Shown in pieces: positions 8,154 through 62,749 of a stretch of 64,000 nt of DNA (position 1 is the stretch's first letter; every line of letters starts with the position of its first letter). Position numbers and translations under genes: made by a program. The stretch comes from Heterotrichella gracilis (lineage: Eukaryota; Sar; Xanthophyceae; Tribonematales; Xanthonemataceae), in assembly GCA_032358255.1 (NCBI GenBank), contig JAULBX010028160.1:1-64000 (forward strand), given 5' to 3'. The notes beneath the pieces were generated by a model, which saw nothing but the letters and a program-made list of their open reading frames with translations, was not told the DNA's origin and searched no databases.

Positions 8154-10015
8154 CTACTGATACCAGCAGGCCACTGGCAAGAACACTGGTAGGTAAATTT
8201 ATAGACGGCAGGATGTGGATGCACCAATGCACCAATGTACCCTATTGGCCAGCAGGTTGTGAGTGCCCCGATGCTCGCTGCTGGTCAGCAGGGGGTGAGT
8301 GCAACCATGCCCAGCTGCACATAACAGTATGAACCCATCTACGAGCCGCCGCCCCCTGGTGTAGGGTTTGGGGTTTGGGGTTGCAAACTCACCTACGAGC
8401 TGCTGTCCACTTGCGTCTGCCAGTGCTGATGCAGCTGCAAAGGTCAAGGCGGCTGCAATGCCCAGTGGCAGCTTCCCCACTGCGGCAACAAGGGACCAGG
8501 TGTCAATTGAACAATTTATTAATTGACTTAAATATATTGGATCAGGTGGCAGGCACCCAGTGGCAGCTTCCCCACTGCGGCAACAAGGGACCAGGTGTCA
8601 ATTTAGTAATTTACTTATTTATTTAATTTGGATCAGGTGGCAGGCACCCAGTGCAAGGAGGTGAGGAGCAAGGCCCGCCTAGGAGCATGGGGGGGAGGTA
8701 TCACAAGTGATAACAGTGCCACATGTGCCTTTTTGGGGGTGCCAGGTTCCCACTGTAGCGACCAGGGAAGGGGTGGGAGGCACCAAGCCAGGGTGCAAGG
8801 AGCAAAGGCGCTGATGCTGGTGGCAGGACTATCCCAGTGACCAATACGAGGCACATGAGCAACAGTATGCTTCCACCCGCGCCAATGCTGCATACGGTTG
8901 GTACCAGCCACAGGGTCAAAAGCGCGCAGCGCTTCAAGGGCCAAGCTAGCAGGGTGACGCACAACAGAAACCCTTTGGCACGCACCACGGTGCACACCAC
9001 ACCTCAGTGGAGGTAGTTGTCATCAGCACTGTGCATCAGGGTGAATGAAGGGTATATCACCCGGTGGCACCTTTGCAGCGGGGTTTTAACACAGTGCTAG
9101 TTGGCTAAAAGGTGTGGCCTGTAGGACAACAGCTACTCACTTCTGAGCCCGAGGGCGCCTCCTGCCGCCATGCCTCCCAAGGCGCCATTCTTCCAGTCCT
9201 TCTTGCCCCGCACCGACTCGGCAAAGCACTGCAAGCAGAGGTAATTGTTGGCCTCACCACAGTTCACGCCAGATGAAGTGTTGAATGGTGTACGGTACAC
9301 AATTGGCGTGATGGAAATGGTGCATGTATTGAGGTCCTTGGGCCAAAGGTGATGTGTCCTATTCTTATCCAATGCTGACAAGGCAAAGCATTAAGGGGGC
9401 TGTGCCGCAACCATCCTCTCACCAGTCTCTGTAGGTTACAAAAGTACGCAAGTGCAAGTCCTAGTGCAAGTAATGAGGCCCATGTCCCTCTGATATGCAC
9501 ACTCTGCTGACCCCCTAAACACGACGTTCTCCCTTGCCAGCATGCTTCCCTGTCAGTGCACAGGTATTGGGTGAACAAGCATGCATGTGAGAGAACGTAC
9601 GTCAATTCCAGAGTACATCAAGCCCACGATGCCGAAGGTGGTTCCATACTGTGCCATGATCGCCCCCGTTCTGGCCAGTGCAGGGAATGGCTTGTCCCGC
9701 AACACAACTGGGACATCGCCCCTGCATCAGATAGAAACCATATCGAGTTTGGTGTTCCTCACATCCTGAAGTTATTTCTGAGGTCAAGCAGGTTCTCACT
9801 TGAACACCAAGTGGAGGTCTCAAGATGTGGATGGGTGGGTGGTGAGGTGCAGGGCAGACAAGAAGCATCACATGTCAGGTTGCTAGTGGAACGTGCTGAA
9901 CGCACCAATTCGTTGTGATCGCTCCCATTATGGCTCCAAAAGCATACCCAGAGGCTGCTGAAGTCACAGTCCTGGTGGTGCAGTCCTGTGCGCGAGGGTC
10001 TTCCTGAAAGCTCAT
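8154..10015 (-). CDS. B14.7/NDUFA11-like Tim17-family protein (mitochondrial complex I)
   Basis: Exons (complement): 9906-10015, 9601-9721, 9141-9228, 8393-8479 and, tentatively, 8154-8185, giving 145 residues. The start ATG has a good context (CCACCATG). The protein begins MSFQEDPRAQDCTTRTVTSA, then GYAFGAIMGA, DVPVVLRDKPFPALARTG, YGTTFGIVGLMYSGID, VRGKKDWKNGALGGMAAGG and PLGIAAALTFAAASALAD. This matches the plant B14.7/OEP16-3 branch of the Tim17/22/23 family in length, in order of glycine-rich membrane segments and in the RxKxDxxNGAxGG loop. Known members are four-helix inner-membrane subunits of mitochondrial complex I or preprotein/amino-acid channels. Assignment among these is inference. 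The last exon is weakly supported: it fits the frame and expected length, but the C terminus is poorly conserved. The gene shares a 0.6-kb divergent upstream region with the next gene. Confidence 0.75.
8459..8662 (-). repeat. Tandem echo of B14.7-like exon 4 head
   Basis: A 95-bp unit holding the exon-4 acceptor, the first exon bases and upstream intron occurs at 8461 and again at 8556 (GTGGCAGCTTCCCCACTGCG in both). A shorter third piece, GATCAGGTGGCAGGCACCCA, repeats near 8630. Only the copy joined to the exon body can work as coding sequence. Confidence 0.85.
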
Positions 10016-10637
10016 GGTGGGATCGGGTCTGGTTGGGGTTTATTAACCCAAGGTGTGAGCTCCGCAGCCCGGTCAAGGCAGAAAATTTGCAGCAAAGGCG
10101 GGTTGGACAGGGAAAGAGCGTGTGGGTGGTGAAGTGTTGCACTCAACAGCACCAGGGGTGGGGAGGTTGCACCAAAGTGCATGCATATGCATCAACAACA
10201 AAACTGCGCCACCACCAAGCTCTGTCAAGGTTGCGGCGCAATTATAAGCTATTTATCTAGTTCTGTATGGTAATGGTGTTGGTAAACCAGACGAAGTCTG
10301 GTTTAGAGGCAAACATCGCCATCGGTAAAACAGTTTCCCCCTTGACTTATCACGGGGAGGGACGTTTTCAAGACTGGGCGGCCGACCAGCCACTAAAACC
10401 TTTAAAAGTACGTTCTATACTGTGCAGGAGGGCATTTTTAGTGGCTCAACGCCCATGTCCTCTTCTGGGTTCAAGACGGGAAGTTTGTGCAACAGTGTTG
10501 AACTCCAGGTGGAACGCGCAGCCACATTGACACACGCATGCATGCACACATGGGGCCAGTTTAGCTCGCAACTAGTTAGCCAGTCTACCAGCGGTGGCTT
10601 GCAATACTAGTACTATCTCAAGGCGTGCTTCGTCAAC
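10016..10637. promoter_or_regulatory. Divergent intergenic region
   Basis: This 622-bp interval separates the start codons of the B14.7-like gene (-) and the acidic-protein gene (+), so it should hold both promoters and 5' UTRs. I see no clear TATA box or other defined element. Confidence 0.4.
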
Positions 10638-13600
10638 ATGGTGGTGTCTTGCTCCTGGGCAGTGCATATGATGCCACCTAGCGCTGAACACTGCATCCGT
10701 GCCACCCAGGTATGTTAACTGTGTGTGTTGTCAAGTTGTTTCGTTGTTAGTGGCTGTAACAGCGCATTGCACGGGACTGAACCTGCATCGCTGCAGGGGT
10801 TTTGCAATTGGCCTTCATCCACACCACAACTGAAGCAGTGCTTCTCTCACCACACATGCCATCGCAGGTATGTGGCAGTTGGGTTTACATTGCTTTTGAA
10901 GCTGACTTGACTATGAAGAAGTTCCACTTGACAACTCATATTGTGCATGATGCAAGCTCACTTCTTGCAGGTTGCGGCCCACCTGTGCTGTCAGGCAAAA
11001 GCAGGATGGCGGGGCTAGTAAAGGGCCTTCCTCACGAAAGGCAAGTCGAGCTGTCGCCCTGGTTCATTCATATGTGCACCCTCGTTGCTGCCTATCGCCT
11101 ACAGCCGCATCTGCACTCTATGTCCCTAGTGCATTTACTTGGAGCGAGTGCGGTGTGTTCTCAAAGTAAGCCATGCCTCTAGCAAGCTCTGACCCACCTC
11201 CCTTGCTTGTGCAGGGCTCATTCAGCAGCAGAGACGTGAATGACCTGGCACAGTTGATGCCTGACCCCCAAGAAACCTTGCTGGACGAGTACGGTAGGTA
11301 GCCCCTGTGGTTTGACAAACCACGAGTGCATGGCAGGGCATTTGGAAGTTGGACAATTGTTATACCCACTAGGGCCATGGTCTTCACCACAAGTTTTTCT
11401 TCTTATACCACAAAGTGTCGCAAGCCCATGCTCAGCCTCACTCATTCGTGGAGAGACAATTCCCGTGGCCGACCCAGCGCACTTCATGATTGCACATCCA
11501 AAATCTCGTACTCACCCTCAGTTTGCATATTGATACCCAATAATCCATACAAATATTTAGTTGTGCTATTTGCCCCAGCCTCACGTTGTTTTTGCAGGCT
11601 CGTTATCGGCCTTTCGCCAGGCTGGCCAAGGCCTGCTGTCCCAGTTTGCATATCTATACATACATCTATGTAGATATTTAGTTGTATTTTTGGCCTCAGC
11701 CTCAGCCTCACGTTGTTTTTGCAGGCTCGTTATCGGCCTTTCGCCAGGCTGGCCAAGGCCTGCTGTCCCAGTTTGCATATCTATACATACATCTGTATAG
11801 ATAATTAGTTGTATTTTTGGCCTCAGCCTCAGCTTCATGTTGTTTTTGCAGACTCTTTATCGGCCTCTCGCCAAGCCGACCAGGGCCTGCTGTCCCAGTT
11901 TGCACATCCAACTATTCATACGGATAATTAGTTGTATATTTGCCCCAGCCTCAGCCTCGTTTTGTGTGTGCAGACTCGCTATCGGCCTCTCGCCAAGCCG
12001 ATCAGGGCTTGCTGTCCCAGTTTGGTGTGGACACCACAGCCTCCTACAGCGAGGAAGGGGAGGACGAGTGGGATGACATGGCGGCATCTTTTGACAGCGG
12101 GATGGAGGCGGGCGGTGCTTTTGGGAGCGGGGGCAAAGCAAACATGAGCGATCTCCCTCCAGAGGTAGGGTGTGCGCCACTGGTGTACTCTGCATGGTGG
12201 GTAAAAGGGGGGGAACTGCTGGCCGTGGGGACTCTAGGAAGGTGCAATTCCCATTTGGTGCATGTGCTTGTTTTTTGTATTTCTATATTTAGTAACGCAT
12301 GGCTTTGGGAGCGGGGGGAAAGCAAACATGAGCGATCTACCTCCAGAGGTAGGGGTGTGCATGTACCACTGGTGTACCGTATGTGGGAGAAATAAAAGGG
12401 GGGAAAACGCTCGCCATATGCACGTGGGGACTCCCGGAAGCTGCAAATCTCATTTAGAGCTTGTGCTTGTTTTTTGTATTTCTAGTTTTAGTATCTCATA
12501 GCTGTAAAAGCGGGGGCAAAGCAAACATGAGCGACCTTCCTCCAGAGGTAGGGGCGTGCTTGCACTATATGGTGTGCTGTACGTGTGGGGAAAAAAGGGA
12601 AACGCTGGCCATATGCATGTGGGGTCTCCTGGAAGCTGCAATCCCCATGTGGTGCATGAGCCTGTTGTATTCTATTTCTATAGTTAGTAACGCATGATTT
12701 CTGCTTCTGGCTGGGTTTGAAGTGAGATCGAGACTGAGTCTGGCTGGCGCTCCTCTGCTTTTTTCCGTCATCGCGAAATGTCATTTCTACAGTCAATTTA
12801 ATCACGCCATGAAAGCCACATGACCCACCTTGTTTATATTTGTATTTTAGTCCTTTTCTAATATTTTGCTTGCCCCATCCGCTGCAGGAGGTCCGTGAGA
12901 TGCAGCGAGCCATGGCGCAGCTTCAGTACAACTACCGCGCGCGGCGCCGCTTTGAGCTGTTCCTTGCGCAGGACAAGGCCATGGAGCTGCACCACAGGCA
13001 GATGGAGCGCGCACAAAACAGGTGAGGACAATTTGTATTGTCATTGCAATGGAATTCCAACTTTTTTTTATTGTAATGTCCACATATTGTCAAGGGTGTC
13101 AAGTGCAAGTACACTGTAATACCCAAATTAGGATGCACAACTTGTGCATCGATTGGAGGTAATAACTGAAGATCACTTACGTACATGCGTTCCAGCAGTC
13201 CAGCCAGATTGGCAGGCTGTCCAACATGCCTTGCGCAACCAACCCTGTCCTAGTACTGCGGTGTAAGCAGTGCCAGTCCAGGGCTGGTTGGTGCAAGGCG
13301 GGTAGGACAGACTGTTAATCTGGTTGTATCGCTGGAACGCATGTGAGTAAGCAAGTATAAGCCCAGTGCGGTTGAGCCATAGGCACATTCCTGGCGGATC
13401 GGTTCTAGTTCGGGAGGAGGGGTGCAGGAGGCACATATGGCCCGTGTGCACAGTGAAGTCACAGTCACAACTGCATGCATGCCCCATGTGCAAACAAAGG
13501 TAATGGAAGAACTGGCAAGTTCGCAATTTTGACAATTAACCGACAAACGCACGTGGTTTGTAGGTATGCTGTGTGCCTACGCATGGGCAAAATCATGGAG

Positions 13601-14588
13601 GAGATTGAGATGAGGGATGCGTACGAGGGGGACGAGGAGAACCCCATACCCTCGTGGATCCGCGCGCATTTTGCCCTGGAGGCGCAGTTTGAGGAGCTGA
13701 ACAATGCTCAGAAGGCGCTGGAGCAGCGCATTGATGCCAGTGAAAAGAAGCGGATACAGGTAGGGCTGGGGGCCAGGATTTATGTGTAGTGTTTATGCTT
13801 TTATTAATTGAGGAGCTCGACAGCGCCTAGGCCCTGGATCAGCGCATTGATGCCAGCGAAAAGAAGCGGATACAGGTAGGGCCGGTGTCAGGTTTTAGGG
13901 TTTATGTGTAGGGTTTAGATTTTAGCAATTGAGGAGCTCGAAAGCTCTCAGAAGGCTCTGGAGAAGCGCATTGAAAAGAAGCTGATACAGGTAGGGCCTG
14001 GGTCAGGGTTTAGGGTCTACAGTGATGCGTGCCACCCCCTTGCAGTATGGGGCCATTTCCATTTTGGAATACCCAGGTTAAGTTATTAATTTTTATCGAA
14101 AAATGATGGTGCACACCAGGGTGCAAGGCATATGCAGTTGACTGCTGAATTGGCTGTTTGCTAAGGTACATGTAGGAAAGTAACCAACGAACTTAATGTC
14201 TTTATAGATGCACGATTTAACCATCCTTGCATGATTAGGCCATGGCCATCCTGGACAGCGCCATCACATTTGAATCGTCCGAAATCATCGAGGTGTAAGT
14301 TAATCTAATCAAAAAATAAATATTCAACCTCCCTTGCAGGATGAGGCCATGGCCATGCTGGACAGCGCCATGCAGGACGCCCTGGTGGCGCCAGCTGGCG
14401 GTCCCTCAGACGCGGATGGCAGCATGGAACGGGACCCCCTGGACGCGTTCCTGGGCGACCTCATCCCGGGGGCCAGCCTGTACGATGTGGATGACTTCAT
14501 GGCAGACATCCTGCCGGGGGTGGGCACTGGAGACGGTGTGGCACTGGAGGAGGAGGACATGGACCTGGAGCTGGGGGAGGAGTTTTAG
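10638..14588 (+). CDS. Acidic coiled protein of unknown function
   Basis: Eight exons: 10638-10709, 10797-10867, 10971-11040, 11215-11293, 11974-12164, 12888-13021, 13564-13759, 14340-14588. All phases agree, giving 353 residues. Exons 4-8 are strong and exons 1-3 less certain. Intron 3 would use a GC donor (AAAG|GCAAGT). The N-terminal part is rich in Cys and His. The middle has an acidic stretch (YSEEGEDEWDDMAASFDSG). Exons 6-7 encode charged helices (EVREMQRAMAQLQYNYRARR, KIMEEIEMRDAYEGDEENPI) likely to form a coiled coil. The C terminus is very acidic and ends EEEDMDLELGEEF. I recognise no domain. Decayed copies of exons 5, 7 and 8 lie in its introns. Confidence 0.65.
11585..11990 (+). 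repeat. Three tandem echoes of exon 5 head
   Basis: Copies of the exon-5 acceptor region and about 60 exon bases begin near 11598, 11725 and 11852, before the working copy at 11974, so the period is about 122-127 bp. Each carries a GCAG acceptor followed by a form of CTCGTTATCGGCCTTTCGCC and GGCCTGCTGTCCCAGTTTG, then upstream-intron sequence ending in GCCTCAGCCTCA. Confidence 0.9.
12118..12560 (+). repeat. Two tandem echoes of exon 5 tail with donor
   Basis: The exon-5 end (AAAGCAAACATGAGCGATCT, then CCTCCAGAG and GTAGGG) recurs near 12316-12352 and 12511-12549, each followed by similar intron sequence (GGAAGCTGCAA, TTGTTTTTTGTATTTCTA). The period is about 190 bp. The first copy is the coding one. 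Confidence 0.9.
13176..13351. repeat. Long foldback hairpin (MITE-like) in an intron
   Basis: Two arms of about 85 bases are imperfect reverse complements along almost the whole length. The left arm includes ACATGCGTTCCAGC and CATGCCTTGCGCAACCAACC. The right arm includes GGTTGGTGCAAGGCGGG and GCTGGAACGCATGTGAGTAAG. The loop is only a few bases around 13263. It sits in the intron between exons 6 and 7 of the acidic-protein gene. Relatives occur at 88-165, 2822-2884 and 45665-45740. It could be a MITE, or the transcript could serve as a small-RNA precursor. Confidence 0.8.
13691..13995 (+). repeat. Two tandem echoes of exon 7 tail with donor
   Basis: The working exon end (13691-13759, GAAAAGAAGCGGATACAG then GTAGGG) recurs at about 13811-13875 and 13931-13990, each with its GTAGGGCC donor and a following telomere-like TTTAGGG motif. 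The first echo contains an in-frame TAG, so it is not a usable exon. Confidence 0.9.
14231..14266 (+). repeat. Echo of exon 8 head
   Basis: The sequence AGGCCATGGCCATCCTGGAC here repeats the start of exon 8 (AGGCCATGGCCATGCTGGAC at about 14344), about 105 bp upstream. Its acceptor AG has decayed to TTAGG. Confidence 0.85.
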
Positions 14589-14705
14589 AACCCTACGGGG
14601 AGGAACTTGAAAACCCAAGGAGGTTAAAACCCTAGGAGGAGGTGGTTTAAACCCTGGAGGGGCGGGTGGGGGGGATGGAGGTTTAAACTCTAGGAGGAGG
14701 TTTGT
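14574..14705. repeat. Degenerate GGAGGA/TTTAAACCCT minisatellite
   Basis: Beginning at the stop codon of the acidic-protein gene, units of about 25-30 bp alternate GGAGGAGG with TTTAAACCCTAGG or TTTAGAACCCTACG. It probably forms part of the 3' UTR. Confidence 0.6.
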
Positions 14706-16907: not shown

Positions 16908-18947
16908 TCATCCCCAGCGTACCACAGCGCCAGCCCACGTCAGCCCAGCCCCAAACCCGGCCATTGCAATCTGCCACAGCCAAAACAACAGGTTACGTCG
17001 AGTCTTGAGGGTGCAGCGAGCGAGCCACATGCAGCGGTATGCAAGTACGCGTGCAACCCATGTGGTGCGTACCGTATCGCCTGGCTTGATGTACCCCTGC
17101 CGCACAGCATCGTCCAGTGCCAGAGGGATGGAGGCAGCCGATGTGTTTCCATACTCGGCAAGGTTGGTGATTACTTTCTCCTCGGGCACTCCCATGCGCT
17201 CTGCTGCTGAGTTCAAAATCCTCTGGTTGGCTTGGTGCAACACAAACCAGTCAATGTCATCCTTTTGCAAGCCAGCTGCCTTGATCGAGTTCTCCAATAC
17301 CTGCCGTGTGCACCATAAATATAATTAATAATATGATACTATCCTATTGGCCACCACACGTCTGGGAGCGCGTCAAGCTTGTACAAAATAATCATTTGGG
17401 TACAGACCACACTGCGCAGCCCGAAAGAAGCGTCTTACCTGATACATATAAATAATAATAAAAGCCATTATATTGGTCACCATACTTCTGGGATCAACCT
17501 TGTGCAGAATATTTGGGTCTAGACCACACTGCGCAGCCCGAAAGGGACGTCTTACCTGATACATATAAATAATAATAAAAGGAGCGTCTTACCTGAGGCA
17601 CTGCCCGGACAGCGAACTTGAAAACCTCTCTGCCGTCCATTCCAATGTTGTCGAACGCGCCCAACCCGGAGGCTCCCTCGTTGCTGAAGGGCTTGCTGTC
17701 AGTACCTATGGCACACACACACACGATTGATTGGATTTCTTTCATGCCTGGATAGGCTGTGACACCACAGGGCTGCATGCAGGTTGGAGAGGCTCAGCAT
17801 TGCTCCAGTGCAGACAAAGTGTGAACCGGCCAATCAACCAGATGCAATCCCCAGGTCAAGCATAGACCAGTGGGTGCAGATGCACTACACACTCGTATGC
17901 TGCCTCCTTGCAATAGTGCGGCAGGTTGTAGGCAACGTTGAAGGGCATTGGGTGAGTGAGAGCAGCCAGATCGCCATTCCAATTCGACATACCTGTGAAG
18001 TGCGCTTGCAGGTGCTTGTGTCCGTTTCCATCGCTGTGCATGTCCAGCCCAAGCAGAGAGCACTGCCCAGGTTGTGCTTGCAGGACCACAGCACCACACC
18101 CGTCCCCAAACAGTATGCACGTCCCTGCACAGCCCCCATCATGCAGTTAGCTAACCATGAGGTAATCCACCACTGAATGGTGAATTTGCGACTGTGTGCA
18201 AGTGCATCAAGCAGAGCAGTGATCTGGGTTGGATTCAAAATAGAGCACCGGCATGATAGCCGCACCTCTGTCCCTCCAGTCGACATAGCGAGACAGCGCA
18301 TCAGCACCAATGACCAGCACGGTTTTGCACACCCCAGTGCGGATGTATTGCGCCCCATTCACAAGCCCAACAACAAAACCACTGCAAGCTGCGGTGATGT
18401 CGTAGGCTATGGCGTTCTTGGCCCCTAATTGTGCTTGCACCTGGCACGCCAAGGGAACAATTTTTAGGCTACCTCGACAAGCTCCATGCCATGCGATGTG
18501 CTGCCTGGAAAAAACTGTGCCCAATAAAGGCCAGGTGCTCTGGCTAGTACACACCTGGCAGGCGCTGCCGAACAGATCGTCAGGTGAAGACGTGGCAAGG
18601 AGAATGAGGTCGACATCCTCGGCAGAGATCTGCGCCATGTCCAGTGCTTTCTGGGCTGCCATTGCGGCATGGTCACTCAATGTCTCCCCAGGCCCCAATA
18701 CGTGCCTCCTCCTGATGCCCGTCCTGGAGGCAATCCACTCATCGTTGGTGTCCACGAACTGGGACATGTCTTCGTTGGTCAATACAGTGGCTGGCACAGA
18801 GCTCCCACAGCCAGTCAGCTTGCACCCAGCATTGAAGGTCATCGTGCTAGCTGCAACACTGCCGCTGGCCACATGGTGCACAGTTGCGCGAGCTGAGACA
18901 GCGGGCTGCCTGACCCACACCCGACTGGAAGTGAACGCGTGTGCCAT
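16908..18947 (-). CDS. KAS3: Beta-ketoacyl-ACP synthase III, plastid
   Basis: Six exons (complement): 18555-18947, 18266-18440, 17993-18124, 17593-17705, 17073-17300, 16908-16970; 367 residues, all phases consistent. The enzyme condenses acetyl-CoA with malonyl-ACP and starts type II fatty-acid synthesis in the plastid. The Ser/Ala/Val-rich N terminus of about 50 residues is a likely transit peptide. The FabH triad is visible: Cys150 in [13 protein letters not shown], His293 in [12 protein letters not shown] and Asn323 in [15 protein letters not shown], with the usual 30-residue His-Asn spacing. [16 protein letters not shown] closes the protein as expected. The last intron (16971-17072) is 102 bp with no stop in frame, so retention would only insert 34 residues. 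The ATG at 18947 is the first in-frame methionine. Confidence 0.95.
17395..17600 (-). repeat. Tandem echoes of the KAS III exon 4 donor region
   Basis: A unit of about 118 bp containing CACTGCGCAGCCCGAAAG, GCGTCTTACCTGA (the donor in reverse complement) and ATACATATAAATAATAATAA occurs twice in the intron, next to the working donor at 17592. GTCTTACCTGA is thus present three times. Confidence 0.85.
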
Positions 18948-28500: not shown

Positions 28501-31500
28501 TTTTGTTGCATGTTTATAAAATAAGAACATTCATTGTTTTAAAATTTATTGCTTTTAAGTGCAGTTGGCAGCTGGTTTTGCCACTCTTGGATTTTAGACA
28601 CCCTGGCCCCTGCACTCCTCACCAAGCGGAACGCAATCTAAATGGGTTCCCAACCTAAAAGCTAAACCCGATTTATTGTATTTAGTACAACACGTGACAT
28701 GGACAGCAATGCGAAGGAGCCATTGCTGTGTATGCACATGTTCATTGTGCGCACCTTGTACTGCCTCCGCCTGTACTTTACATTTCCCTCCCTGCGCAGC
28801 TCGCCAGACTCAGCCACCTCAGCCTCGGAGGGGGGCCTTGCGGCAGGCGGTGGCGCCTCCTCGGGCCCGTCGTCCAGTGCCGCATTGGCATCAGACGCAT
28901 CGCCCCGCGTGTCAACCACCGCTGCTGCACCGAGGGCTGATTCGCCAGCTGGGGATGCCTGCTCCCTCGCACCTGACACCATGTCAATGGCAGCAGTATC
29001 CACAGTGGGTGACAGAACGGGTAGGCCCACCCATGCATCAAGGGACGGGGCATCCACAGGCCTGCTGAAGAACCTACAGGGTTCTGATAAGACTGGCTGT
29101 TGTGGGGGCCTGACGTCCGGCGACGCCATCACCCCTGCTGGGATGGCGCCATGTGCGCACTCGGCTTCCATTGTGTTGAAGCCAGGCGACGCCATCACCA
29201 CTGCTGGGATGGCATCATGTGCGCAGTCAGCTTCAGGTGCGCTCACATCCTCCCCACTGCTGGGATCGCTGGTAAGCTCTGGGATTTCGCAGTCATAGCT
29301 GGCCAGCCGGGTGACGTCATCCAGCGCTGGCGCCTCGTCATCGCTGACCACCTCCACCTCAATCCTGTACCTGATGACATCACCAGCAGCCGCAGGCGCA
29401 CATACCAAACCACTCGGTGCGCCAGCCGCACCCCTGGAAACGCCAGTTGACTCCCCAGTCCAGCCTGGGGCGCTGCATGAGGGGGCATTGGATGCACCCG
29501 CCTCGCCTGAAACCGCCTCTGAATGCAGCACACTGGCTGCCGCCGGCCGGTCACACGCAGGTGCAGTGGTGGGTGCTGCATCCCCCTGGTCATCCCCATC
29601 TTCCTCCCTGCTTGGCTGACCAATGTAGTGCGTCTGGCGGGAGCTGAGACTGTGTGTGGCCACCACAAAGTCTGCCGCATCCACTGTGGCACCCCCGGGG
29701 GCGCTAGGGTGGCGGGCTGGCAGCTCAGGCGCCTGTGCAGGCGTTGAGGAGGCGGCGGTGGCCTGTGGCTCCAGATTGCCAGCCATGGTTGCATGTGCAG
29801 CGGGTTCTGCAGGGGCGGTGGCCTGTGCTGGGGTGCCTGGCGGTGGGGGGGCTGGTGCAGTGGACGTGTCAGGTGGAGGTGGAGGTGAGGATGCCAGCTC
29901 AGCAGCAGGCAGTGGAGGTGCAGCAGGGGGTCCACCACTGTCCGGTGCAGGTGGAGCAGTAGGCTGTGGCTGTGGCTGTGGCTGTGGCTGTGGCTGTGGC
30001 TGTGGCTGTGGCTGTGGCTGTGGCTGTGGCTGTGCAGCTGCAGTGGCGGTTGTTTCCATGGATGCACGGGAGGTGTAGCTTGGCGACTCCATGTCTTTGA
30101 GCACCTGAGGCATGTGATCAGCATGGAATCAGAAGCAGCAGGTGTGTGATCAGTATGGATCAGAAGCGGCAGGTGTGTGATCAGAATGGAATCGGAAGCG
30201 ACAGGTGTGTGATCAGCATGGAATCAGGAATGACAGGAGTGTGATCAGTATCGACCAGAAGCAACAGGTGTGTGATCAGCGTGGATCAGAAGCGACTAGC
30301 GTTTGATCAGCAACGATCAGAAACCCCAGGTGTGTGATCATCATGGCATCAGACGCGACGAGTGTGTGATCGGCATAGATGCGTTTCTCACCTGAGTCAT
30401 CGCCTTCCCTACATCCTTGTCGATGGGATTCTGCACCTGGGCACCCTCTAAGTCATCCAGTGCATGCTGCAGTTGTCCCAAGGCATGGTACGACTTGCCA
30501 CGCCTGCGAGGGGGGGGCAGCACCGATCAGCAAGGAAGACAACACATAGCCCTAATCCAGAACTTACTGATTACCCACAAAAAACTTCAAGCCTGCAAGG
30601 GCTGGGATCAATTAGCAAAAAAATAATAGATGCATTCCTCTGGGAACACACATGCAAGGGCAATCGAAATTCCACCCACGCACCTGTACAGCGCCTTGAA
30701 GTTGCCTGGCTCCAGCCTAAACCCTATACCATAAACCCTAAACCCTGAAACCACTGCATGTACTACACACCTGTACAGCGCCTTGAAGTTGCCTGGTTCC
30801 AGATCCAGGACTGCCGTGCAATCCGCAACGCTGCCGTGGTAGTCGCCGTGGTAGTACTTGGCCAGCGAGCGATTGCTCAGCACCTTGACATTATGTGGCT
30901 CAAACGCAAGCAGCTGGTCGTACAGGGCGATGGCCTGCGGCAATGCAGTCAGTCAGTACCGTGCGATCCAGCAGTATGACAGTGACGTGCATTCCAGCAC
31001 CTTGGCATTGTGCGCCTCAAAAGCAATCCGCTGGTAGTACAGGGCATTGGCATGCCAGTAGCCAGTGAGGAGCATGGTGGTAGTTTGCAAGGGAGCATTT
31101 GCCACCAGTTGCTATTGTTTGTAATGTGCGGCGCCACATTCAAGCAAGCTGATTGTACATGACAGCGGCCTGCAGGTATTCAGCACCATGCAGCACTCTG
31201 TACGATGCTATCCAGGCGTACAGCTGGATGGGCAGCCAGCGTTGCACATGCAGCGCCGAGCAGTTTGTCAATTTAAAATTAACACTTTTCACGTATTTTG
31301 CCGTGGCAATGCCCATAGCCTACCTGCGGGTACTGCTTCATCTTGGTCAGCTTGTCAGCCTCCTGCTTCAGCGCCTCCAGGTCTGGCGTGGGTGCTGTAC
31401 AACTTGGCAATGCCCCCCCCGCCGCGTGGCCAGTGGCTGCTGGGGATGTGGACGAGGCAGCGCGAGGTGTAACATCCCCTTTGCCAGGCGAATCCACCCC

Positions 31501-42037: not shown

Positions 42038-44180
42038 TTAGAATCCGGAGGCAGCCCCCAGCAGCCCGCTGAACTTCAGCCACATGATGATTTGCATGAT
42101 GATCCCCTGGCCGGTGCCAGCCTCAATGCCGATTGCCAGGAGGAAGCCAACCATGGCCCACCGCCCATTGCGCATCTCGATTGACTGTGCATACGCCATG
42201 TCTGAGCTTGTGAATGCGATGGACTCCTGGGCGTCACGGGCGCCGTTGAGAGGCAGGGAGGTGTTGGAGGCGTTGGCGGTGCGGGCCTGTAGGGTGATGG
42301 GAGAAGGGGTGAGAAGGTTGGCAGGTGGGGTTGGAAGGAGACATATCAGGGGTGTTAATGGCAGGTAATGCATGGGCTAGGAAGGTAGATATAGCAGACA
42401 GGGTTTGCAATACATGGTACAAGGCTGGTAAGCAGGCAATCAGTGTAGAATCATGCAAAGATTATACTCAACTGTTATCAAGTCATTAATAAAACACGAC
42501 ATGCACTCATCCACCATGCCATAGCAAACAGGCTGCTACATCAGTATCCTATCAATCCCTCTTACCTTGAGGTCGGCAGCTGCAGCGTCCACCTCAGCCA
42601 TCTCCTGCGACGTGGACTCCAGCGTCAGGATGTTGCTGTCCTGCTTCATCTGCGCAGCTGCAGCCTCGGCGTCCGAGCTGTCGATGGTGAGAAAGCGGTC
42701 TGCCGCTGTGGCCTGTGACCTGGCCTCAATGATAGCCTTGATGTTATCTGGGGATGTGAAGTCGCCAGTAGCCTTCATCTTCTCGGCCTCCTTCTTGTAG
42801 TCATCCTCGTTTGTCATCTGGAGGAAGCCGCGGTAGCGGTTGACCTCGGCGCGGGACATCTTGCCTGTACAGGGGAAACATTGTGTTTAGAAATAATGGG
42901 GGTTAAAAGGGCACAGTGGGTGGTGGGGATTGCAAGGGGGGAGGAAGGGAGCACCTGAATTGGATTTTGCGAAGCATGACAGCAAGGCAGCCATGTGCAC
43001 ACGGTACATGGGCACAGGGGTAGTTCTGTTATGCATGGAGCCAAGGGATGGGTTGTGGCGCCCAGCACCATCAACAAGCGCAAGGCAAGGTTTGCTGCAG
43101 ACAGCCCAGCTGGTTGGCAAGGCACAGGCCGCTGGTTGGCACTGGAATCCGACTGCACTGCATTCACCCTGCTAGGATGTGATGGGTCGAGGGCTCACCT
43201 GAGGTTGCGCGAGCGATGGTGTTTGCCAGCCCAGCGACAGTGCCGCCAACGGTCAGGCCGATGATTGCGTACAGCACTGTGTCGTTGGGGGTTGTCAGGC
43301 CAATCTGGCCCAGGGTGCCCTTGCCAGTGATACCCTCCTCGATGATGCTCACGATGAAGCCCATCATAGCCAGGCGGCCAGTCCACTTCTGCAGGTACAA
43401 AAACAGCCAGTCAGCTATAACTCCCAACAGCCAGACACTACCAATGTGTTATGTGGTGACTCATTGGTGCAAAAGAGCCAAAAGGAGTGCTGTACACAGG
43501 GGTGGCAAGCTGTTGGGCTTTCGAGGTGTGTGGTGTCAAGAACAATACGGTATGGATACAAAGTGCAGAGCAAGCAGGAGCAAGCAGGAGGGGTGGGACG
43601 GGGCTGAAGCTCACTGGTGAATACGCCCAGGGGGAATGCAGTGCATAAGGGTGGCAAGCTGTTGGGCTTTCGGTGTGGCGCCAAAACCAAACAAGGTACC
43701 ACAGGAAACGAGTTTAAGAGCCGGTTGAAGAGGAAGCAGGACTCAAGCTGTGGAGTGGGGCAGGGCTGGAGCTTACCTCTGAGAAGGGAGTGAATCCAAA
43801 CAGGCCCTCCTGGGTTGGCAGCCCGATGTTCTCGGCAAACTGCAACACGAAAAAACACGGGATCAACAGAGAGTCACAGAAAGAGAAAAGCAATATGACC
43901 AAGCATATGACACACTGGTGTGGCGACCCACTAGCAATCTGTGTGGCGTGAGCCATGACTAAGCATCTAAAGTGTCGAGGCAGAGTGCACACAGACAGAC
44001 CCCGTGCAGATCGCGGCTCACCTGCACGACTCCGTCTTGATCGACCTTCTGAGCTGTGGCGCGGACGGTCCTTGCCACGCTCACCCTAGCTGGGCGAGAG
44101 GTTGCCCTAGAGGCACCCACCACACCCCTCTGCAGGGATGGCAGGGTTGCGACGCGGGAGGAACCCAGTGCTGACTGCAT
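42038..44180 (-). CDS. Three-helix LHC/ELIP-like thylakoid protein with long loop
   Basis: Five exons (complement): 44022-44180, 43777-43839, 43199-43388, 42566-42864, 42038-42286; 319 residues. The first 45 or so residues are Arg/Ser/Ala/Val-rich like a plastid transit peptide. GLFGFTPFSEKWTGRLAMMG (about 65-84) starts helix I, a second hydrophobic helix follows (VLYAIIGLTVGGTVAG), and SIEMRNGRWAMVGFLLAIGI (about 272-291) is helix III. The E-x-x-x-G-R and E-x-x-N-G-R-x-A-M motifs are the chlorophyll-binding signature of LHC, ELIP, PsbS and HLIP proteins. Such members usually act in photoprotection. A hydrophilic stretch of about 100 residues (138-237, with KMSRAEVNRYRGFLQM) separates helices II and III, which is much longer than in ordinary ELIPs. 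Assignment to a named subfamily is open. Confidence 0.85.
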
Positions 44181-45000
44181 TTTGCTTAGCTGTTGTCGAC
44201 TGCAACACGAGAGAGGAAGGAGGGTATGGAGTACAGGTGGAGGCGAACAGAGTTGTTGGAAATAAGAGTGCGAGAGGTGCAGTTATGGTGGTAGACGGCG
44301 GAGGTGCTTGCTACTTATGATTTGCGTTGTCTGGTGAGAGGAGTCTGGGAAAGGCTTTCGTAGCTGCTATCGTCTCAGGTGCCACGACTGCGCTATGAGT
44401 TCACAGGAGCAAGAACAGCGTCCATTGCGTGCAAGCCACACAGCGGTCGACCACACTGGTGGCCACACGTTGCGAGCTTCCAGAAACGGCCACCTGGCAA
44501 TGGCTCTTGTGGGTTCCCGCCATTATAACTGTCGAGTCAGCTCACGGCCACACAACGATACAAAGTTTTGCACTTTAACCTCGAGGGCCAATTGGGTCTG
44601 TTGTTGTGTCCACGTTACCACCTCCCAGCAGGGGCAAAACTTGGTCAGCTTGCGTTTAGCCTGCTGGACCACCAGGGCCACTCCAAGCCTAGTGTTGGGA
44701 TCTAAGCTAGCCTGGCTCAGCAGAGAGATATTTCAATCCTGACGGGCAGCTCTGGCTACACCCTACAAAACCTAGGTTCAGATGGGCCAAGTGTAGTCTA
44801 GACCCTCAAACGCACCCCTGTGGGCACAGCTTGCAAGAACAACTCCAGTTCAATTGTTACGGGACCAGTGCTGCCATATGTCCACAGGCTAAACTCAACC
44901 CTAAACCCTAACCTGGTGGAGCAAAGCAACACTTGCGAGCACCTGATGCAGTAATAAAGCTAGGCCAAGTCAGCTTCTTCCCCGGCTTCAGCTAGACTTG
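44181..45000. other. Intergenic region upstream of the LHC-like gene
   Basis: This 820-bp region holds the likely promoter of the LHC-like gene and the 3' UTR of the next minus-strand gene. A telomere-like AACCCTAAACCCTAACC lies near 44893. No gene is seen. Confidence 0.5.
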
Positions 45001-48000
45001 CTAACTGTGTGCCCTTTCCATGAGCAAGTGCTCGCGGGTGACTGCATGGTACACCTCAGCCAGGGCCGCTGACGTGGCAGCAGGGTCGGGTGACAGCTGG
45101 TGGGACATGGAGCGCATTCGGGCAACAAGCTCATCCTGCGGGGTGGGTTGGGGTGCGGGGTGAGGAATGGGGCAAAGGGGATATCATATGCAGGTGGGGT
45201 TTATGTGTTAGGGTTTCGTGCAACAAGCCGGGTCTGCAGGAGGGGTGAGGGTGGAGGGGTATGGGGACTGCAGCTATGTAGTGCATGGTACTCGATGAGG
45301 TCGTACAAAATAACAAGAATTTAGAAGAAACAACTCCAGCACAACGCAGTTGCACACCTATAATCCGGTTTGGCAAAGGAAAAATGCAATAAATGCCAAT
45401 ATTATCATGATGGTTATGTGCATCGAGCATGTTGGAGCAGCGCTTGTCATTACCTGGTCCTCCTTGGATAGCCTGGGATCCACCTGCAATTTTCCGTCCC
45501 CGTCTCCCAGCTTGCCAGTCCCCACCAGGGGCACAGGGCAGAGGTGTGGGGACCTGCATCGGGACTGCACCGCCTTCATGACCAAGGAAACTAGCCCAAT
45601 GGCGAACTCCTCTCCTTTGGCACCTGCATATCGTGTGAATCATTTCTTACTTGCATGCCTACCTGGTCCACTGGCACAGGCAGATTAGCAGTTTGTCCTA
45701 CATGCCTTGCGCCAACCAGTTGTGTCCAAGCACTGCTTCTACCATCTCTGCTTTGGAGGTCTCAACGCAGTTTAATCACGCAACAGGGTGCTCCCCACTG
45801 CTCACCTTGTCGCATGTCGGACCATGTGGATTAATACAGATTTTTCTAGGTCACTTGCTAGCTGGTGCGTGTAGGAGAACAGGTGCCGCAGAGATGGATG
45901 CCGGGCATGCCAGTTGTCAATTACATTAGGGAGTCAACAGTGTTGCATCTGGTAGCAACCATGCTTCCCGCCACAATTTCCTCCCCACCTGAACCACTTG
46001 TGCTGTTCCCCTCGACATCCCCTGGCCCTTCCAGCGGAGCAAAGGGGAGGAAAGTGTCTGAAAGCGTGCCGAAGGCAATCACGGCTGGCCGGATGTGCTT
46101 GGCAAGCCTGCAGCAACAAAACCACATGCTAAAACTTAGGATGGGAAAGCTGGCAATAATTTGCGCATGTATGTCCCATGCAAAGATGCAGACAATCTAT
46201 CGCGAGGTGGTGCATGGCACATTCTCTTGAAGTGGTCCATGTCGGGCATGTAAGTTCCTGTTAGGGTCTCTGGTTCCGTGGACAGCCATGCATGCGTGGC
46301 TGATCAAAGGCGATGAACTGCTCAAGAGCCGATCAGACATCCAATGCTGACCAGAGCTCATGACCTGCAGAGGCATTCCAAGACTTGCCCATGCACACAT
46401 TATCCCAATCTGACATCCACACTAAGTGGCCCAGGCCACGTACCTTTCCGCTGCAATGACTTCCTCCACAGAGCCAAGGTTGGAATGGATGAATCGTGGA
46501 CGGGGAGGGCAATCCCCTGGCAGAGCGGGTTCCCCCGCCACCGCCACATGTCCATCCTCACCATCCCCTTCTTGCCCTGCCTCAGGTCTTCCAGAAGCTG
46601 TCGCGGCCCCTTCCAATCCATGCGCCAAGGAGTCGCGCCCCGCAGCTGCCACAACAACCGCATCTGGTGTGACACATCCTGCACCTGCTGTCCTTGCCAC
46701 GGCCTCTACCACAGCGCCTGCTTCGTGTCCTGTCAGAACCCCTTCATTCTCTGACAAAGCCCCAACATGGCCTGCCCCGGCCAAATCATGCGCTGCCCTG
46801 ACTGTCCCAGCGCCAGCATGCGCTGCCACATCCCGCTCACATGTCGCTGGCGACACGCCGCAGGGATGCGCTGCAACAACTTGTGGCTGAGCCCCGTCCA
46901 ATGCATGCGCTGCCCCTGCTCCATCCCCGGGATTTCCCGCAGCATCCCTGGGATGCGCTGCTGCTGCAATATTGTTGTTAATGGCGGCGCATCGGCGCTC
47001 CCACGCATCCAAAACGCATGTTGCAATGGTGGGGTAGTCGCCAGAGTCCAGGCGCCAGAAGCGGAACAGGTCAAACACCACACTGCCTGCAACGTGTAGG
47101 GCATTACATTACATTACATTACATTACATTACATTACATTACATTACATTACATTACATTACATTACACTACATTACACTACATTACATTACATTACATT
47201 ACATTACATTACATTACATTACATTACATTACATTACATGTGCGTCATTAGCGAGGGGGCAAACAGTCTTTGGGTAAGTCGCTGCGATAGCGTTCCATCC
47301 TGGGGTTTACCAATGCGATTGGTTATGCGTCACAATCCCCAAACAAAACTTTAAATGCACAAAACAAGCCATCCAGCCACAGGTAGCTGTGGAAAACACA
47401 CCCGTGCCTGGCAAACGCGCATGCACGGGTGCAACTGCATTTCTCACCTGGTTGTATGGGTGATTCATCAGGGTGCAGCTGGTGCATGTCATCGATGAAC
47501 TCCTGCGGCACCTGTGCTGCCAGAGCTGACGCAACAAACGCACGCGTGCCTGCGCCAGTGACCAAGGCAAGGTTGATGATGGCTTAGAAAACATATAAAA
47601 TCATATGACATGATGCATCTACACCTTGAATACTTGTGCACCCTGTGCAACGTGCATCAAACCCAGCGCCAAACCATAGGTGACAGTGTCTGTTACTGTG
47701 TGTTACTGTGTGAATCAGCCATTGGCTGCTTCTCATGCTCCAACGCCTGCCACAGACCTTAGGATCCCCTAGCGTTAAACAGAGCCCGTGTGACAGGCAG
47801 GAGGAAATAGCTGTGGCGCATTATATCAATGCCAAATGACAGAATCCAAAGATTTAAACCGATTATCACGTACCAATGTGTCTGCCAGGGCGGCCGCTGT
47901 GGCCAGGTGCTATTCCCCAAAATACATCAATAAGAACTTATATACAGTTGCACTTTTTTTAGATGACTTATCATTGCGTACCAAATGTGTCTGCCAGGGC

Positions 48001-51000
48001 GGTTGCTGTGGCCAGGTTGCCATTCTCCCGCAGGAACAGCAGGTGTGCGAGCAGGGCTGAAACTGCCACCGGTCCTCCTCCCCCTGCCCCAGCGGCATCG
48101 TCCCAGGAGCTCAGCGGTTGCAGCAGCACACTCATCACCTCGTGCGCTAGAGTGCCAACAAGCCAACCTGCACATGTTGATTTGTGACCCCTTACTTGAA
48201 GTTTACTTGTTGTGTTACTGTTGTTGTTGTTGCATTGGAATTCAGCATTGGTATGATGGTAGCAACCCAGACTGTTGGTCTTTTCTAGGGGATTTCATTT
48301 ACTTTACTCGGTGTGTGAGGTTTAGGGTTTAGAAGCTTGAAGCCCTGCTCCGCTCCTGTAACAGTCATCGATTGCCGTAGCTGTATAGGCATTCCTGGCA
48401 CTGTTCTCCAGAAACTCCCTGGGGGCATGGCTGACCCACAAGGTACCCCCCATTGCAGCACCTACGGTATACCTTATGCTCTTCACATTGACCCATGCAT
48501 GGGTGAAACTGCAGCAAACTGGGCGTGGAACTCAGTCATGAGCCCCGCTTGCCCTTCAACCCCTTCACCCCCCCCACCCCCCACACGCACCAATGACTCC
48601 TTGCTTCACCTCTTGCCCCACCAGGCCAGAACCTTGGGCTCCTTCCTCCTCAAGCACTGCATCCACCTGGGCCGCAAACCACAGAAGAGGGTCAAACAAA
48701 TCAAAGCATGGCTATTTGAATAGAATTGAAGTATAATGAGAAATTAAAACCCAAAATATAAGCTTCTACCCTGCTTGTGATTAAATAGGCGCTTGATCGA
48801 GGTGTAAGCAAGGAGGAGACATGGCGCGTTCCCTTCCTATTTGTTATTTCTCCGGGATCCCATCCTACCAGGTGTAGGGTTTGGGGACTTATAGGGTTAC
48901 CTGTGCTGCGTAGTACACCGCACTGGTCCCCGCGTATGTGCGCAGATGGCGCCGGCAGTACAGGTTCTGCACCACAGGCCAGCGGGTGAGGCTCCATGCT
49001 TAGGCAGACGATGGTTGTACGTGCACATACGACACTGAAATGTGAAGCAATTTGTATGCGCACGCACATACAGTGTATGTCATGTTCATTGCATGCGTAC
49101 ACGGGCAGTCAGCAGGTAACTCAGGCTAGTGTGCAGGTTGTGCCCAGCAAATGACCGATCGGTACCCATCGCTTTACCTGGAGCAGCAGCATGGCTCGGT
49201 CGGTGGAGCGCCTGCCTGCAAAGAGCATGACGTCGGCGCTGACGTCAGCGTCGCTCAGCTGCTGCATCACCAGCGCCAGGTGGGCAAGGGAGTTGGCCAG
49301 CCGTTCAGTGCGGTCGATCTTCACTCCCCTCTCCTTGAATATCTTCCTCACCTGCCACATTGAGGCGGAGTGATTCTGGTTGCCTTAGGGTTTAGGGTTG
49401 TAATGTGGGCCATGAGCAAGGCAAGATGGCCAAGGTTGATATTCCAGATCCTGATCCTAACCCAGATCTAGGCGCATCACATGTGGCATCAACAAACTTG
49501 TACGTAGGATGGATGTCTTGTCTTTAAAATATTTGTTCTGGGTTAATAAAATTATGATTACCTGATGGCAATGCAGGAAATGCACCCCACCTGTGCCCTG
49601 ATGGTGTATTCTTGCACCAGCTGCATCAAGGTGGTCTCAACATTTGAAGCGGCATCCACAGGGCCTGGCAGGGCATGGGCCGTATACATAAATGAGTCAA
49701 GTCTAGCCGAATACATAGATGAGTTCAGTCTAGTAGCACGTGCCTGTCTGAATGCATCAGCAGTACACAGCAGACACATTGCAGGTAGTGGTGCGCGCGA
49801 GTGCTGAACAGACTCCACTGGAATACCACAGACTCCACTGGAATACCAACACATTTGACAAAGGCAATGGGATCTATTGCATCTATAAACGTGCCACTCC
49901 ATGGAAAGGTCAAATATTATCTCTTGCAAAATTACCCTCTGCAATGGCCACCAGCTCGCCCCCCAGCTGCTCCCAGTGCACAGGCGCCACACAGTGGAGG
50001 GATGCGCGGTCCAGCATTGCCTGCGTGGCGTGCGGACGGTTTAGGGTTCATGGCGGGTTGTAAGGTGCACTCGCTATGGCGAGATATGCGGTCCACCATA
50101 TATTTGATGTGCACCCGTCAAACAATACAGGACAAACCAGCCCAAGCAGGATCATGGTTTAAAATGCACCACTTGTGAGCCTGTAAAATTGCACATTTCT
50201 GCATTTAGACAGCCCTTTGGCCATACCTGTGTTGTCTGGAAGCCACCAAAGTAGGTGCACAGCACTTCCGCCACATGGCGGTCATAGGGCACCGTCGTGG
50301 ACAGCTGGCGCACTGCTTCCAGGAACTCGCACCACAGCTCTGGATCCTGGCAAGGCACCAATGCGGGGTTAATGATGGCATGCAAATTCATAGCTGATCG
50401 GTCAAATATTCTAGAGCATGAACCTCCCTTATGTAACCAGGCCCTGGATGGCCTTGGTCGCCTTCCCACTGAAAAGCCGTAAACCCTAGAAAAAACCCTG
50501 CTGGCGCACTGCCTCCAGGAACTCGCACCACAGCTCTGGATCCTGGCAAGGCACCAATGCGGGGTTTATGATGGCATGCAAATTCATAGCTGATCATCCA
50601 AATATTCTAGAGCATGAACCTCCCTTATGTGGCCAGGCCCTGGATGGCCTTGGTCGCCTTCCCACTGAAAAGCCATAAACCCTAGAGAAACCCTGCTGGC
50701 GCTACTGCATGGCGTTGGCTGTAAATGCATGGTGCCTCAGTGATATTAGCAAAGTGCATCTTCCCACACCGCATCCCTTACGCACACCAGCGCCAATGCC
50801 GTGCACCACACCTGCAATGTCCAGCCCCATTAGCGCAAAAATGTGTATATGCATCCACAGGCAAGCAAACGAATCAAACAGAGGTAGCCTTCAATTTCAT
50901 CCGATCAAACACCATTTTTCGGATGCAGGGGGTACATGTGGTGAGAAACTCCCCACCTCATCCCGTATGCACGCAAGGCCCACCGGCGTGCGCCGCACGT

Positions 51001-51931
51001 GCAGTGCAAAGTGCGCGTCCAGCCCCGACAGCAGCCCTGCGTACAGCTTGGCCATGCGGGCCTTGTAGGCGTCGTTCACCAGCAGGCCTCGCAGGGCCTG
51101 GAGCGAGAGGGCGGTGATGCGGCGCGCCAGGGCTTCGTCCAGGAAGGACAGCAGGGTATCTACATGAAGCAGATTCGAAGCTTACATATTGGGTTGCAAC
51201 TGGTTAAACTGGTTCATGTAGTTGTAGTTGTACTTTGAGACAGGTCTGCTGCAGCAATTCAACAACCATATTTGTGCACAGCTCCCGTTCTCGCATCCAG
51301 AGCAATGTAAGCAGTGTGTGTGCCTGTGCAACGTGGGTCTGGAAACTAACTAGAGCAAACACCTTGCTGGTAGAATATGACACAGGTCAAGGGAGGGGAG
51401 GCCCTTAGCAAGGGTTCTCGAGCAGGACTAGCAGAGTGCCCACTCCAGCTGATCAGACTGACTGTGTGCAGGCAAGGCTTTGCCTTGGCGGGTTTACACC
51501 TGGTTGCCAGCGTGTGGCACAGGTAAGCCCAGGAGGACACCTGCTAAGCTGTGGACCAGATAGCCAAAGGCGTCTGCTGCTGCATATGCAATACTGCAGT
51601 GCTCACAATGCCACACTACAGTTAGCAAACCAGGGGTGTCCATATCCATACCTGTGGTTTCTGCCCTGACGCCAGCTCGGGAGCAGTAAAACCCTGTGCG
51701 CAGCAGCAGCCTGGCGTGGTCGATGGCGCCAAACTCCCAGCTGGGCCAGTCACCGGTGCCCATGGGACCACTGGCAAGGACCATCGGCATGGAATGTGTG
51801 TCGTGACACACTGGTGGAAGTTGTGCAGGAAATGACAAGTTCTGTAGAAGCCCAGGAGTGCCCGAAGTAGGTTGGCCTGGTGAGGGAACGTGTAAGGAAG
51901 CCACTGGCATGCGTATGTCACATGCATGCAT
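45001..51931 (-). CDS. Large helical protein of unknown function, 14 exons
   Basis: Exons (complement): 51652-51931, 50957-51159, 50227-50346, 49936-50020, 49591-49664, 49178-49351, 48901-48966, 48591-48666, 47982-48167, 47448-47549, 46444-47086, 45989-46107, 45454-45623, 45001-45135. All phases agree, giving 810 residues if the ATG at 51931 is right. The 5' end is the weak part and another upstream exon is possible. Most of the protein is short amphipathic helices of alpha-solenoid type (TLLSFLDEALARRITALSLQ, ERLANSLAHLALVMQQLSDA, ALLAHLLFLRENGNLATATA). Exon 11 is a low-complexity, Ala/Gly/Val/His-rich insert. It ends AALAEVYHAVTREHLLMERA plus HS. I recognise no family. There is no signal peptide or membrane segment. 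Exons 3 and 9 have decayed duplicates in the adjoining introns. Confidence 0.65.
45665..45740. repeat. Fragment of the foldback repeat family
   Basis: CAGATTAGCAGTTTGTCCTA, then CATGCCTTGCGCCAACCAG, matches the left arm of the hairpin at 13176-13351 and the fragment at 88-165. Confidence 0.65.
47102..47240. repeat. (ACATT)n pentanucleotide microsatellite
   Basis: About 27 units of CATTA/ACATT with two ACACT variants. It lies in the intron directly upstream (gene sense) of exon 11 of the helical-protein gene, 16 bp from the acceptor. Confidence 0.98.
47840..48015 (-). repeat. Echo of helical-protein exon 9 tail
   Basis: TACCAATGTGTCTGCCAGGG with CGGCCGCTGTGGCCAGG (about 47872) copies the exon end and donor at about 47979 (TACCAAATGTGTCTGCCAGG). 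The period is about 108 bp. Confidence 0.9.
50303..50720 (-). repeat. Tandem duplicate of helical-protein exon 3 head and intron
   Basis: About 198 bp (CTGGCGCACTGCTTCCAGGA, then the acceptor, intron and AAACCCTAGA) is repeated almost intact from about 50503 (CTGGCGCACTGCCTCCAGGA). Only a few changes separate the copies, so this is among the youngest echoes. Each unit contains a CCCTAGA or CCCTAAA-like motif. Confidence 0.95.

Positions 51932-59892: not shown

Positions 59893-62749
<2,857 letters not shown>

Follow-up and report, generated by a model that had tools for sequence, protein, structure and literature searches.

Duplicated exon-intron borders and telomeric repeats in the introns of the xanthophyte Heterotrichella gracilis

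The stretch of DNA examined here (the window) comprises positions 1 to 64,000 of contig JAULBX010028160.1 from Heterotrichella gracilis (GenBank assembly GCA_032358255.1). Five of its predicted genes, listed in Table 1, contain echoes, i.e. copies of a segment that crosses an exon-intron border, with head echoes found upstream of the exon and tail echoes downstream. One of the five encodes TRM8, a tRNA m7G methyltransferase. Its predicted product aligns with human METTL1 (7u20) with an E value of 2.4e-80 and without gaps at any of the four exon joins, and all four introns contain echoes. The older of the two head echoes of TRM8 exon 4 includes an in-frame stop within the copied coding text, and the second was called an exon by the gene predictor (positions 61645-61761).

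When the window was compared with itself, 36 local alignments in direct orientation and no local inverted alignments were recovered, and a splice junction lies inside a copy in 19 of them. The echo copies in the window are 19 found computationally and one found by eye, in five predicted genes. A preliminary description of the window had reported about 25 copies in seven genes; about 20 copies in five genes were retained and two genes were removed. The duplication assigned to a KAS III gene (17315-17581) is real, but the models place it in predicted intergenic DNA. The duplication at the 3' end of a glycosyltransferase gene (40444-40773) is also real but crosses the point where the last predicted exon ends. 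Neither is confirmed as a border copy. The single gene predicted at 42038-51790 ends in a chlorophyll a/b-binding domain, which points to a photosynthetic organism, and is probably two genes fused by the predictor. The window also includes 27.6 copies of the pentamer CATTA (47102-47239).

Table 1. Echo-bearing genes, echoes, telomeric tracts and related features in the window
Feature	Position	Strand	Remarks
B14.7-like gene	8.3-10.2 kb		Echo-bearing; name from preliminary description
Head echo of minus-strand exon 8393-8479	8556-8653	-	Source 8461-8562, 88 % identity, offset 95
Acidic protein gene	10.9-14.9 kb		Echo-bearing; name from preliminary description
Three head echoes of acidic-protein exon 11974-12164	11519-11902	+	Unit ~123-127
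Two tail echoes of acidic-protein exon 11974-12164	12304-12696	+	Unit 184-199; source begins at 12120, 5' splice site after 12164
Two tail echoes of exon 13564-13759	13808-14019	+	Unit ~116-120
Telomeric tract between tail echoes	13890-13925	+	G strand on sense
Head echo of exon starting at 14340	14215-14264	+	Source 14322-14371, 88 % identity
SPAG1-like gene	25.6-36.3 kb		Echo-bearing; name from preliminary description
Tail echo, SPAG1-like gene	30678-30715	-	Source 30765-30802, 95 % identity
Telomeric tract	30716-30752	-	Directly between tail echo 30678-30715 and its source
Head echo	31872-31913	-	Source 31760-31801, 93 % identity
Predicted intron, likely born by duplication	32218-32449	-	18-base direct repeat (one mismatch) containing both splice sites in register
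Telomeric tract	34084-34123		In intron of echo 34394-34505
Tail echo	34394-34505	-	Source 34508-34614, 75 % identity
Helical protein gene	42.0-51.8 kb		Echo-bearing; name from preliminary description
Tail echo	47863-47918	-	Source 47968-48028, 85 % identity
Head echo	50500-50708	-	Source 50304-50512, 95 % identity, offset 196; telomere-like bases at joint
TRM8 gene	59.9-62.7 kb		Echo-bearing; identity confirmed by homology
TRM8 exon 1	59893-60104	+	Tail is source of tail echo; join to exon 2 ungapped versus METTL1
Tail echo of TRM8 exon 1	60203-60279	+	Source 60037-60109, 83 % identity, offset 166
TRM8 exon 2	60504-60666	+	Predictor and METTL1 alignment
Head echo of TRM8 exon 3	60840-60925	+	Source 61075-61160, 88 % identity, offset 235
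TRM8 exon 3	61080-61277	+	Predictor and METTL1 alignment
Older head echo of TRM8 exon 4	61432-61567	+	Source 61795-61929, 89 % identity
Telomeric tract	61594-61614	+	G strand on sense; separates two exon 4 head echoes
Second head echo of TRM8 exon 4	61623-61756	+	METTL1 has no such insertion
TRM8 exon 4	61810-61986	+	Predictor and METTL1 alignment
Tail echo of TRM8 exon 4	62118-62164	+	Source 61945-61999, 76 % identity; extra fragment, by eye, near 62227-62250
TRM8 exon 5, including stop	62663-62749	+	METTL1 alignment

The DNA analysed totals 294 kb, made up of the window and 230 kb from elsewhere in the assembly (68.5 Mb, 903 contigs). The additional sample, which is small, consists of 23 stretches of 10 kb, and ten adjacent pairs were joined to give 20 kb pieces situated 5-25 kb from contig starts. 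A further stretch, L008, is a repeat of the window. Two stretches, L009 (C1:1-10000, from an 894 kb contig) and L011 (C100:1-10000), have a GC content of 0.36-0.37, densely packed long ORFs and type IX secretion sorting domains, indicating that bacterial contigs are present in the assembly. These are probably from a Bacteroidota companion, and both were excluded from the border counts.

The gene predictor was trained on the sampled sequences using exons read by eye as the seed. Unsupervised codon clustering of long ORFs was also tried as a seed but was discarded, as the clusters split by base composition rather than coding. The predictor converged on the splice consensus MAG/GTRNG and TGCAG/G, with 418 introns. 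Masking the weaker of two duplicate coding copies left 407 introns, 395 of them not at a sequence end. Three versions of the gene models (first parse, echo-masked and tied emissions) were used, and all gene models and introns are predictions from genomic sequence. Several models are supported by homology. A mitochondrial HSP70 model could be aligned over 613 residues, with a 10-residue insertion and an 8-residue gap, both close to predicted exon ends, as errors. Domains were found in four predicted proteins (KAS III, lipase 3, CBF, zinc dehydrogenase, SET and GTP cyclohydrolase). Echoes were often called exons by the predictor and are a practical trap that misleads gene prediction. The gene predicted at 1038-12541 of L016_017 (quinone-oxidoreductase-like) includes a near-repeat of about 17 residues that is probably an echo read as coding.

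At a cut-off of at least 45 bits, the 294 kb yielded 112 direct local alignments and 3 inverted ones, and shuffled sequence yielded none. Duplications were present in 8 of the 10 sampled 20 kb stretches outside the window, confirming the duplication of borders first described for the window and extending it beyond. Self-comparison detected no local duplication in L020_021, L024_025 and the 10 kb L010. These three are gene-bearing, contain few telomeric tracts and are regionally unlike the rest.

For the border test, one alignment per cluster was used (94 clusters) and compared with random placement. A predicted splice junction falls within a copy in 61 clusters, with 37.8 expected, and this number was not reached in any of 2000 placements. 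The remaining clusters are intergenic (6 observed, 20.2 expected), in intron interiors (12, 20.1 expected), in exons (5, 5.5 expected) or mixed (10, 10.4 expected). The preliminary description had named self-matches equally common in intergenic DNA and at borders as a refuting result; intergenic self-matches are scarcer, and the claim is not refuted. The border excess was also found using the echo-masked (56 clusters versus 35.9) and tied (59 versus 35.9) models. Borders are likewise enriched relative to intron interiors. The border share of the border plus intron clusters, J/(J+I), is 0.84 versus 0.65 expected in the first parse (P 0.002), and it exceeds expectation in the other two parses (P 0.001 and 0/1000). 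Young clusters, defined as at least 88 % identity, are equally biased, with 17 of 22 at borders versus 7.9 expected and border-share P values of 0.008, 0.031 and 0.004 in the three parses; hence, slow decay of exon copies is not the only source of the bias. In 11 of the 94 clusters, the copy includes an entire exon together with both of its splice sites (5.9 expected), a number from which avoidance of whole-exon duplication cannot be read, because the predictor labels echoes as exons.

A junction falls within a copy in 91 alignments, which are partly non-independent as arrays give several. Fifteen of these are multi-junction pairs, which were left unscored for geometry, and the 76 single-junction pairs comprise 48 tail, 27 head and 1 of unexpected geometry. 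In 75 of these 76, it is thus the working copy that adjoins the exon body, as stated in the preliminary description, though this arrangement is partly forced by geometry.

The echoes are dead coding sequence. Among the 33 indels in the exon parts of the 56 usable pairs, 30 disrupt the reading frame, and the mismatches at codon positions 1, 2 and 3 (0.084, 0.078 and 0.170) are as expected if an unconstrained echo is compared with a real exon that changes mainly at third positions. Mismatch is 0.111 in the exon part and 0.148 in the intron part. A border echo is detectable in 75 of 395 introns, and the median length of introns with a border echo is 409 bp versus 255.5 bp for introns without any duplication, although longer introns also offer duplications more room. 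Detectable copies account for 11.4 % of intron bases. These figures support enlargement of introns by border duplication, but not the earlier suggestion that this is the main way in which introns grow in this genome.

The six commonest 7-mers in the introns are all rotations of TTTAGGG/CCCTAAA. TTTAGGG is the terminal repeat of this genome, and CCCTAAA arrays start no more than 7 bases from base 1 in six contigs. Tracts of at least 10 bp were found 171 times in 123,353 bp of intron, 3 times in 70,091 bp of intergenic DNA and not at all in 76,259 bp of exon. The density of telomeric 7-mers is 29.0 per kb in gaps between copies, 22.5 in duplication-bearing introns, 10.2 in other introns, 1.3 in intergenic DNA and 0.54 in exons, and the 15 other necklaces of equal composition that served as controls range from 0.2 to 3.2 per kb in every class. 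At least one telomeric 7-mer is present in 184 of the 395 introns and none in 211, and degenerate telomeric runs (score of at least 10) were detected in 114 introns versus 1 after shuffling. Because the intron state of the predictor could learn the repeat, a model with tied emissions for introns and intergenic DNA, in which telomeric stretches had been neutralised, was also used. Under the tied model, in which 723 of about 801 junctions are shared, the densities are 11.7 per kb in introns, 3.1 in intergenic DNA and 1.1 in exons; the contrast is weaker yet persists. Six loci on other contigs had been picked by a telomeric match before the pattern was recognised, and both models place the tract of every one of them within a predicted intron. 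The whole genome contains 2,790 copies of a 17-base telomeric word and none of the reversed word.

Tract density is highest between 20 and 59 bp into the intron from either splice site (29.3 and 30.7 per kb at 20-39 bp), drops to about 4-7 per kb at 60-100 bp and climbs again at about 200-280 bp, in a profile for which the exon sides were measured only for introns of at least 300 bp. The orientation of the tracts is also biased. Among the 209 tracts in the first half of introns, 119 have the G strand as the sense strand, compared with 45 of 173 in the second half (P 1.3e-9). At positions at least 60 bp from both ends of all introns, the counts are 54G:41C in the first half and 20G:66C in the second (P 4.9e-6). 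The trend is also present in introns without duplications, where the first 30 bp past the 5' splice site are balanced (75G:82C) and the 7-mers 100-240 bp from the 3' splice site are 74C:1G and 15C:2G. A G-strand tract at the 5' end and a C-strand tract at the 3' end of the same intron were seen in 10 of 288 introns of at least 200 bp, close to what the separate frequencies predict, and paired capping of both intron ends is therefore unsupported.

Of 63 echo gaps, 33 contain telomeric DNA, compared with 14.5 expected from equal segments of introns without duplications and 21.3 from region-matched segments (P 0.0005). The other 30 have no telomeric 7-mer, so that not every duplication requires telomerase. 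Where telomeric DNA is present, the sense strand is the G strand in 18 of 22 tail-echo gaps and the C strand in 9 of 11 head-echo gaps. Thus, the G strand points from exon to intron, as extension of an exon-side 3' end would give. Telomeric 7-mers also occur beyond the echo copy (20.7 per kb for tail and 15.2 per kb for head echoes), so that in many cases the duplicated unit already contained a tract. Tracts and echoes covary by region (Spearman 0.90, 12 sequences, P 6e-5). Per intron, the length-stratified association between them is modest (odds ratio 2.2, with P <0.05 in one of five strata). A short-range (<300 bp) duplication spans the tract at only one of the six tract loci from other contigs.

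Distances between neighbouring copies (91 clusters) form two classes with means of about 104 and 194-195 bp (BIC 958 versus 984 for one class). The classes are sharper in the pairs with telomeric DNA (n=44; 18 pairs at 80-120 bp, 4 at 120-180 bp and 16 at 180-220 bp) than in pairs lacking it (n=33; 8, 11 and 8, respectively). A connection of the two unit sizes with the spacing of nucleosomes is conjectural. Neither the telomeric repeats nor the size classes nor the regional clustering featured in the preliminary description.

One predicted intron in the window (32218-32449, Table 1) likely arose when an AGGT site was duplicated in tandem, to judge from the repeat at its ends. This is the one clear case of intron birth in the window, and the 76 single-junction pairs do not have this form. 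Among the 395 introns, in-register repeats at the intron ends with runs of at least 8 number 8 versus 2.7 expected, and runs of at least 9 number 5 versus 0.6. Some short introns are almost wholly telomeric.

We consider the chances to be even that these features arose from breaks near exon borders that were repaired with duplication, often with capping by telomerase. What we infer here is the breakage itself, the involvement of telomerase, the sequence of events and the cause of the bias towards borders. Gene bodies would suffer many breaks close to exon-intron borders, and repair would leave a side-by-side copy of the broken stretch, the two copies lying about 104 or about 195 bp apart. Before joining, the broken end on the exon side would often be extended by telomerase with TTTAGGG repeats, producing the order copy, telomere repeats, copy. 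Where the duplicate crosses a splice border, the copy joined to the exon body would be spliced and the protein left unchanged, and the other copy would drop into the intron and decay. Introns would grow stepwise and fill with telomeric scars and, now and then, a duplication would create a new intron. General breakage alone does not explain the sparing of intergenic DNA, and the bias towards introns over intergenic DNA would require an extra cause, such as breaks linked to transcription or splicing. In a broader version, telomerase would be a genome-wide intron builder. Breaks within genes would receive a telomeric cap and be rejoined with a doubled border, and the introns of this lineage would largely be scars of healed breaks, made in steps of about 104 and about 195 bp. 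Short introns that are almost wholly telomeric would then have been born in this way, as TTTAGGG repeats contain GT and AG. We consider this broader version somewhat doubtful.

Small tandem duplications could instead occur everywhere, with exonic ones purged, border ones hidden by splicing and the telomeric tracts unrelated to them. This would account for the geometry (75/76), the decay of the frame and the roughly half of pairs that have no telomeric DNA, and conservation of the exon copy would keep border pairs detectable for longer (mismatch 0.111 versus 0.148). However, intergenic DNA should then be as full of duplications as introns, and only 6 clusters were seen where 20.2 were expected. 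Young pairs, which are little decayed, are equally biased (17/22), and tracts between copies exceed the region-matched expectation and covary regionally with the echoes. We therefore regard this explanation as unlikely. We regard as equally unlikely the proposal that the tracts came first, for example kept as splicing aids, and, being G-quadruplex-forming, stalled replication such that the neighbouring border was duplicated. The C strand near a 3' splice site would supply a branch-point-like CTAA and pyrimidines, and G runs near a 5' splice site would likewise help splicing. Such signals would fit the density maxima at 20-59 bp from each splice site as well as the orientation bias, and tracts often lie within the duplicated unit. 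Against this, introns without duplications still show the bias in orientation at 100-240 bp from the 3' splice site (74C:1G, 15C:2G), a telomeric 7-mer is missing from 211 of the 395 introns, and the proposal does not explain the origin of the tracts.

The many short introns that are largely telomeric might suggest a family of intron-making transposons (introners), but comparison of 370 introns gave only two non-telomeric cross-locus alignments of at least 60 bp, near-identical introns at many loci were not encountered, and the copies derive from the local exon rather than a common element. This interpretation was rejected as extremely improbable. That the echoes are assembly artefacts or alternative exons is also very improbable. 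One pair in L014_015, 98 % identical, flanks a gap of 100 Ns (~11335-11434) in an echo array and may reflect a scaffolding error, but all remaining pairs are <97 % identical and show real divergence. Tandem alternative exons were rejected because the copies do not keep an open frame; the 30 of 33 indels that break frame in the 56 pairs exclude intact alternative exons for most echoes.

Duplication within a gene with one copy hidden by splicing is shared with the tandem-duplication model of intron gain (Gao & Lynch 2009, via PMC4974935), and the intron at 32218-32449 fits that model exactly. However, in the model both splice sites of the new intron lie in the copies, whereas here mostly one existing border is copied and an existing intron grows. 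Telomeric DNA between the copies, found here, is absent from the model as outlined in that source. Exonic or exon-intron tandem duplications within genes are described in Drosophila and potato (PMC2891723, PMC4974935), including an additional 83 bp duplication inside an intron of the potato gene (PMC4974935). Those are single cases or a handful, compared with 75 of 395 predicted introns here. Direct repeats around exon-intron borders have been attributed to break repair (PMC11782384), but these are 4-30 bp long and pair the two ends of an intron, whereas here one border is copied in units of about 60-240 bp. Introners, reported also from green algae, create introns genome-wide (PMC9860276) and resemble the present case in creating or enlarging introns across a genome. 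However, introners share sequence between introns, and here only the telomeric repeats are common.

In mammals, short interstitial telomeric sequences are inserted during double-strand break repair, some with direct target duplication at staggered breaks, and duplication alone was seen at 3 of 66 horse loci (PMC7215372). The tracts described here are likewise short, decayed and inside chromosomes. They are made of the chromosome-end repeat. However, their genomic distribution is not random: 31 % of the human tracts are in introns, which is compatible with random insertion (PMC7215372), whereas the present tracts have an intronic density about 32 times the intergenic one, lie near splice sites and are often found between border copies. 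In the literature searched, which includes few subscription journals, nine papers mention both telomeric repeats and intron gain; none of the matches listed names telomere-like sequence as well, and the best 25 of 83 contain no phrase for telomeric repeats in introns. The component parts are of known kinds, and the combination and the intron bias appear to be new.

How introns originate and grow is an old question, and the known routes are mostly single cases or transposons. With a readable border duplication in 75 of 395 introns and telomere repeats in 184 of 395, the process could be dated and counted in this organism. If the proposed mechanism is true, intron evolution would be tied to break repair and telomerase.
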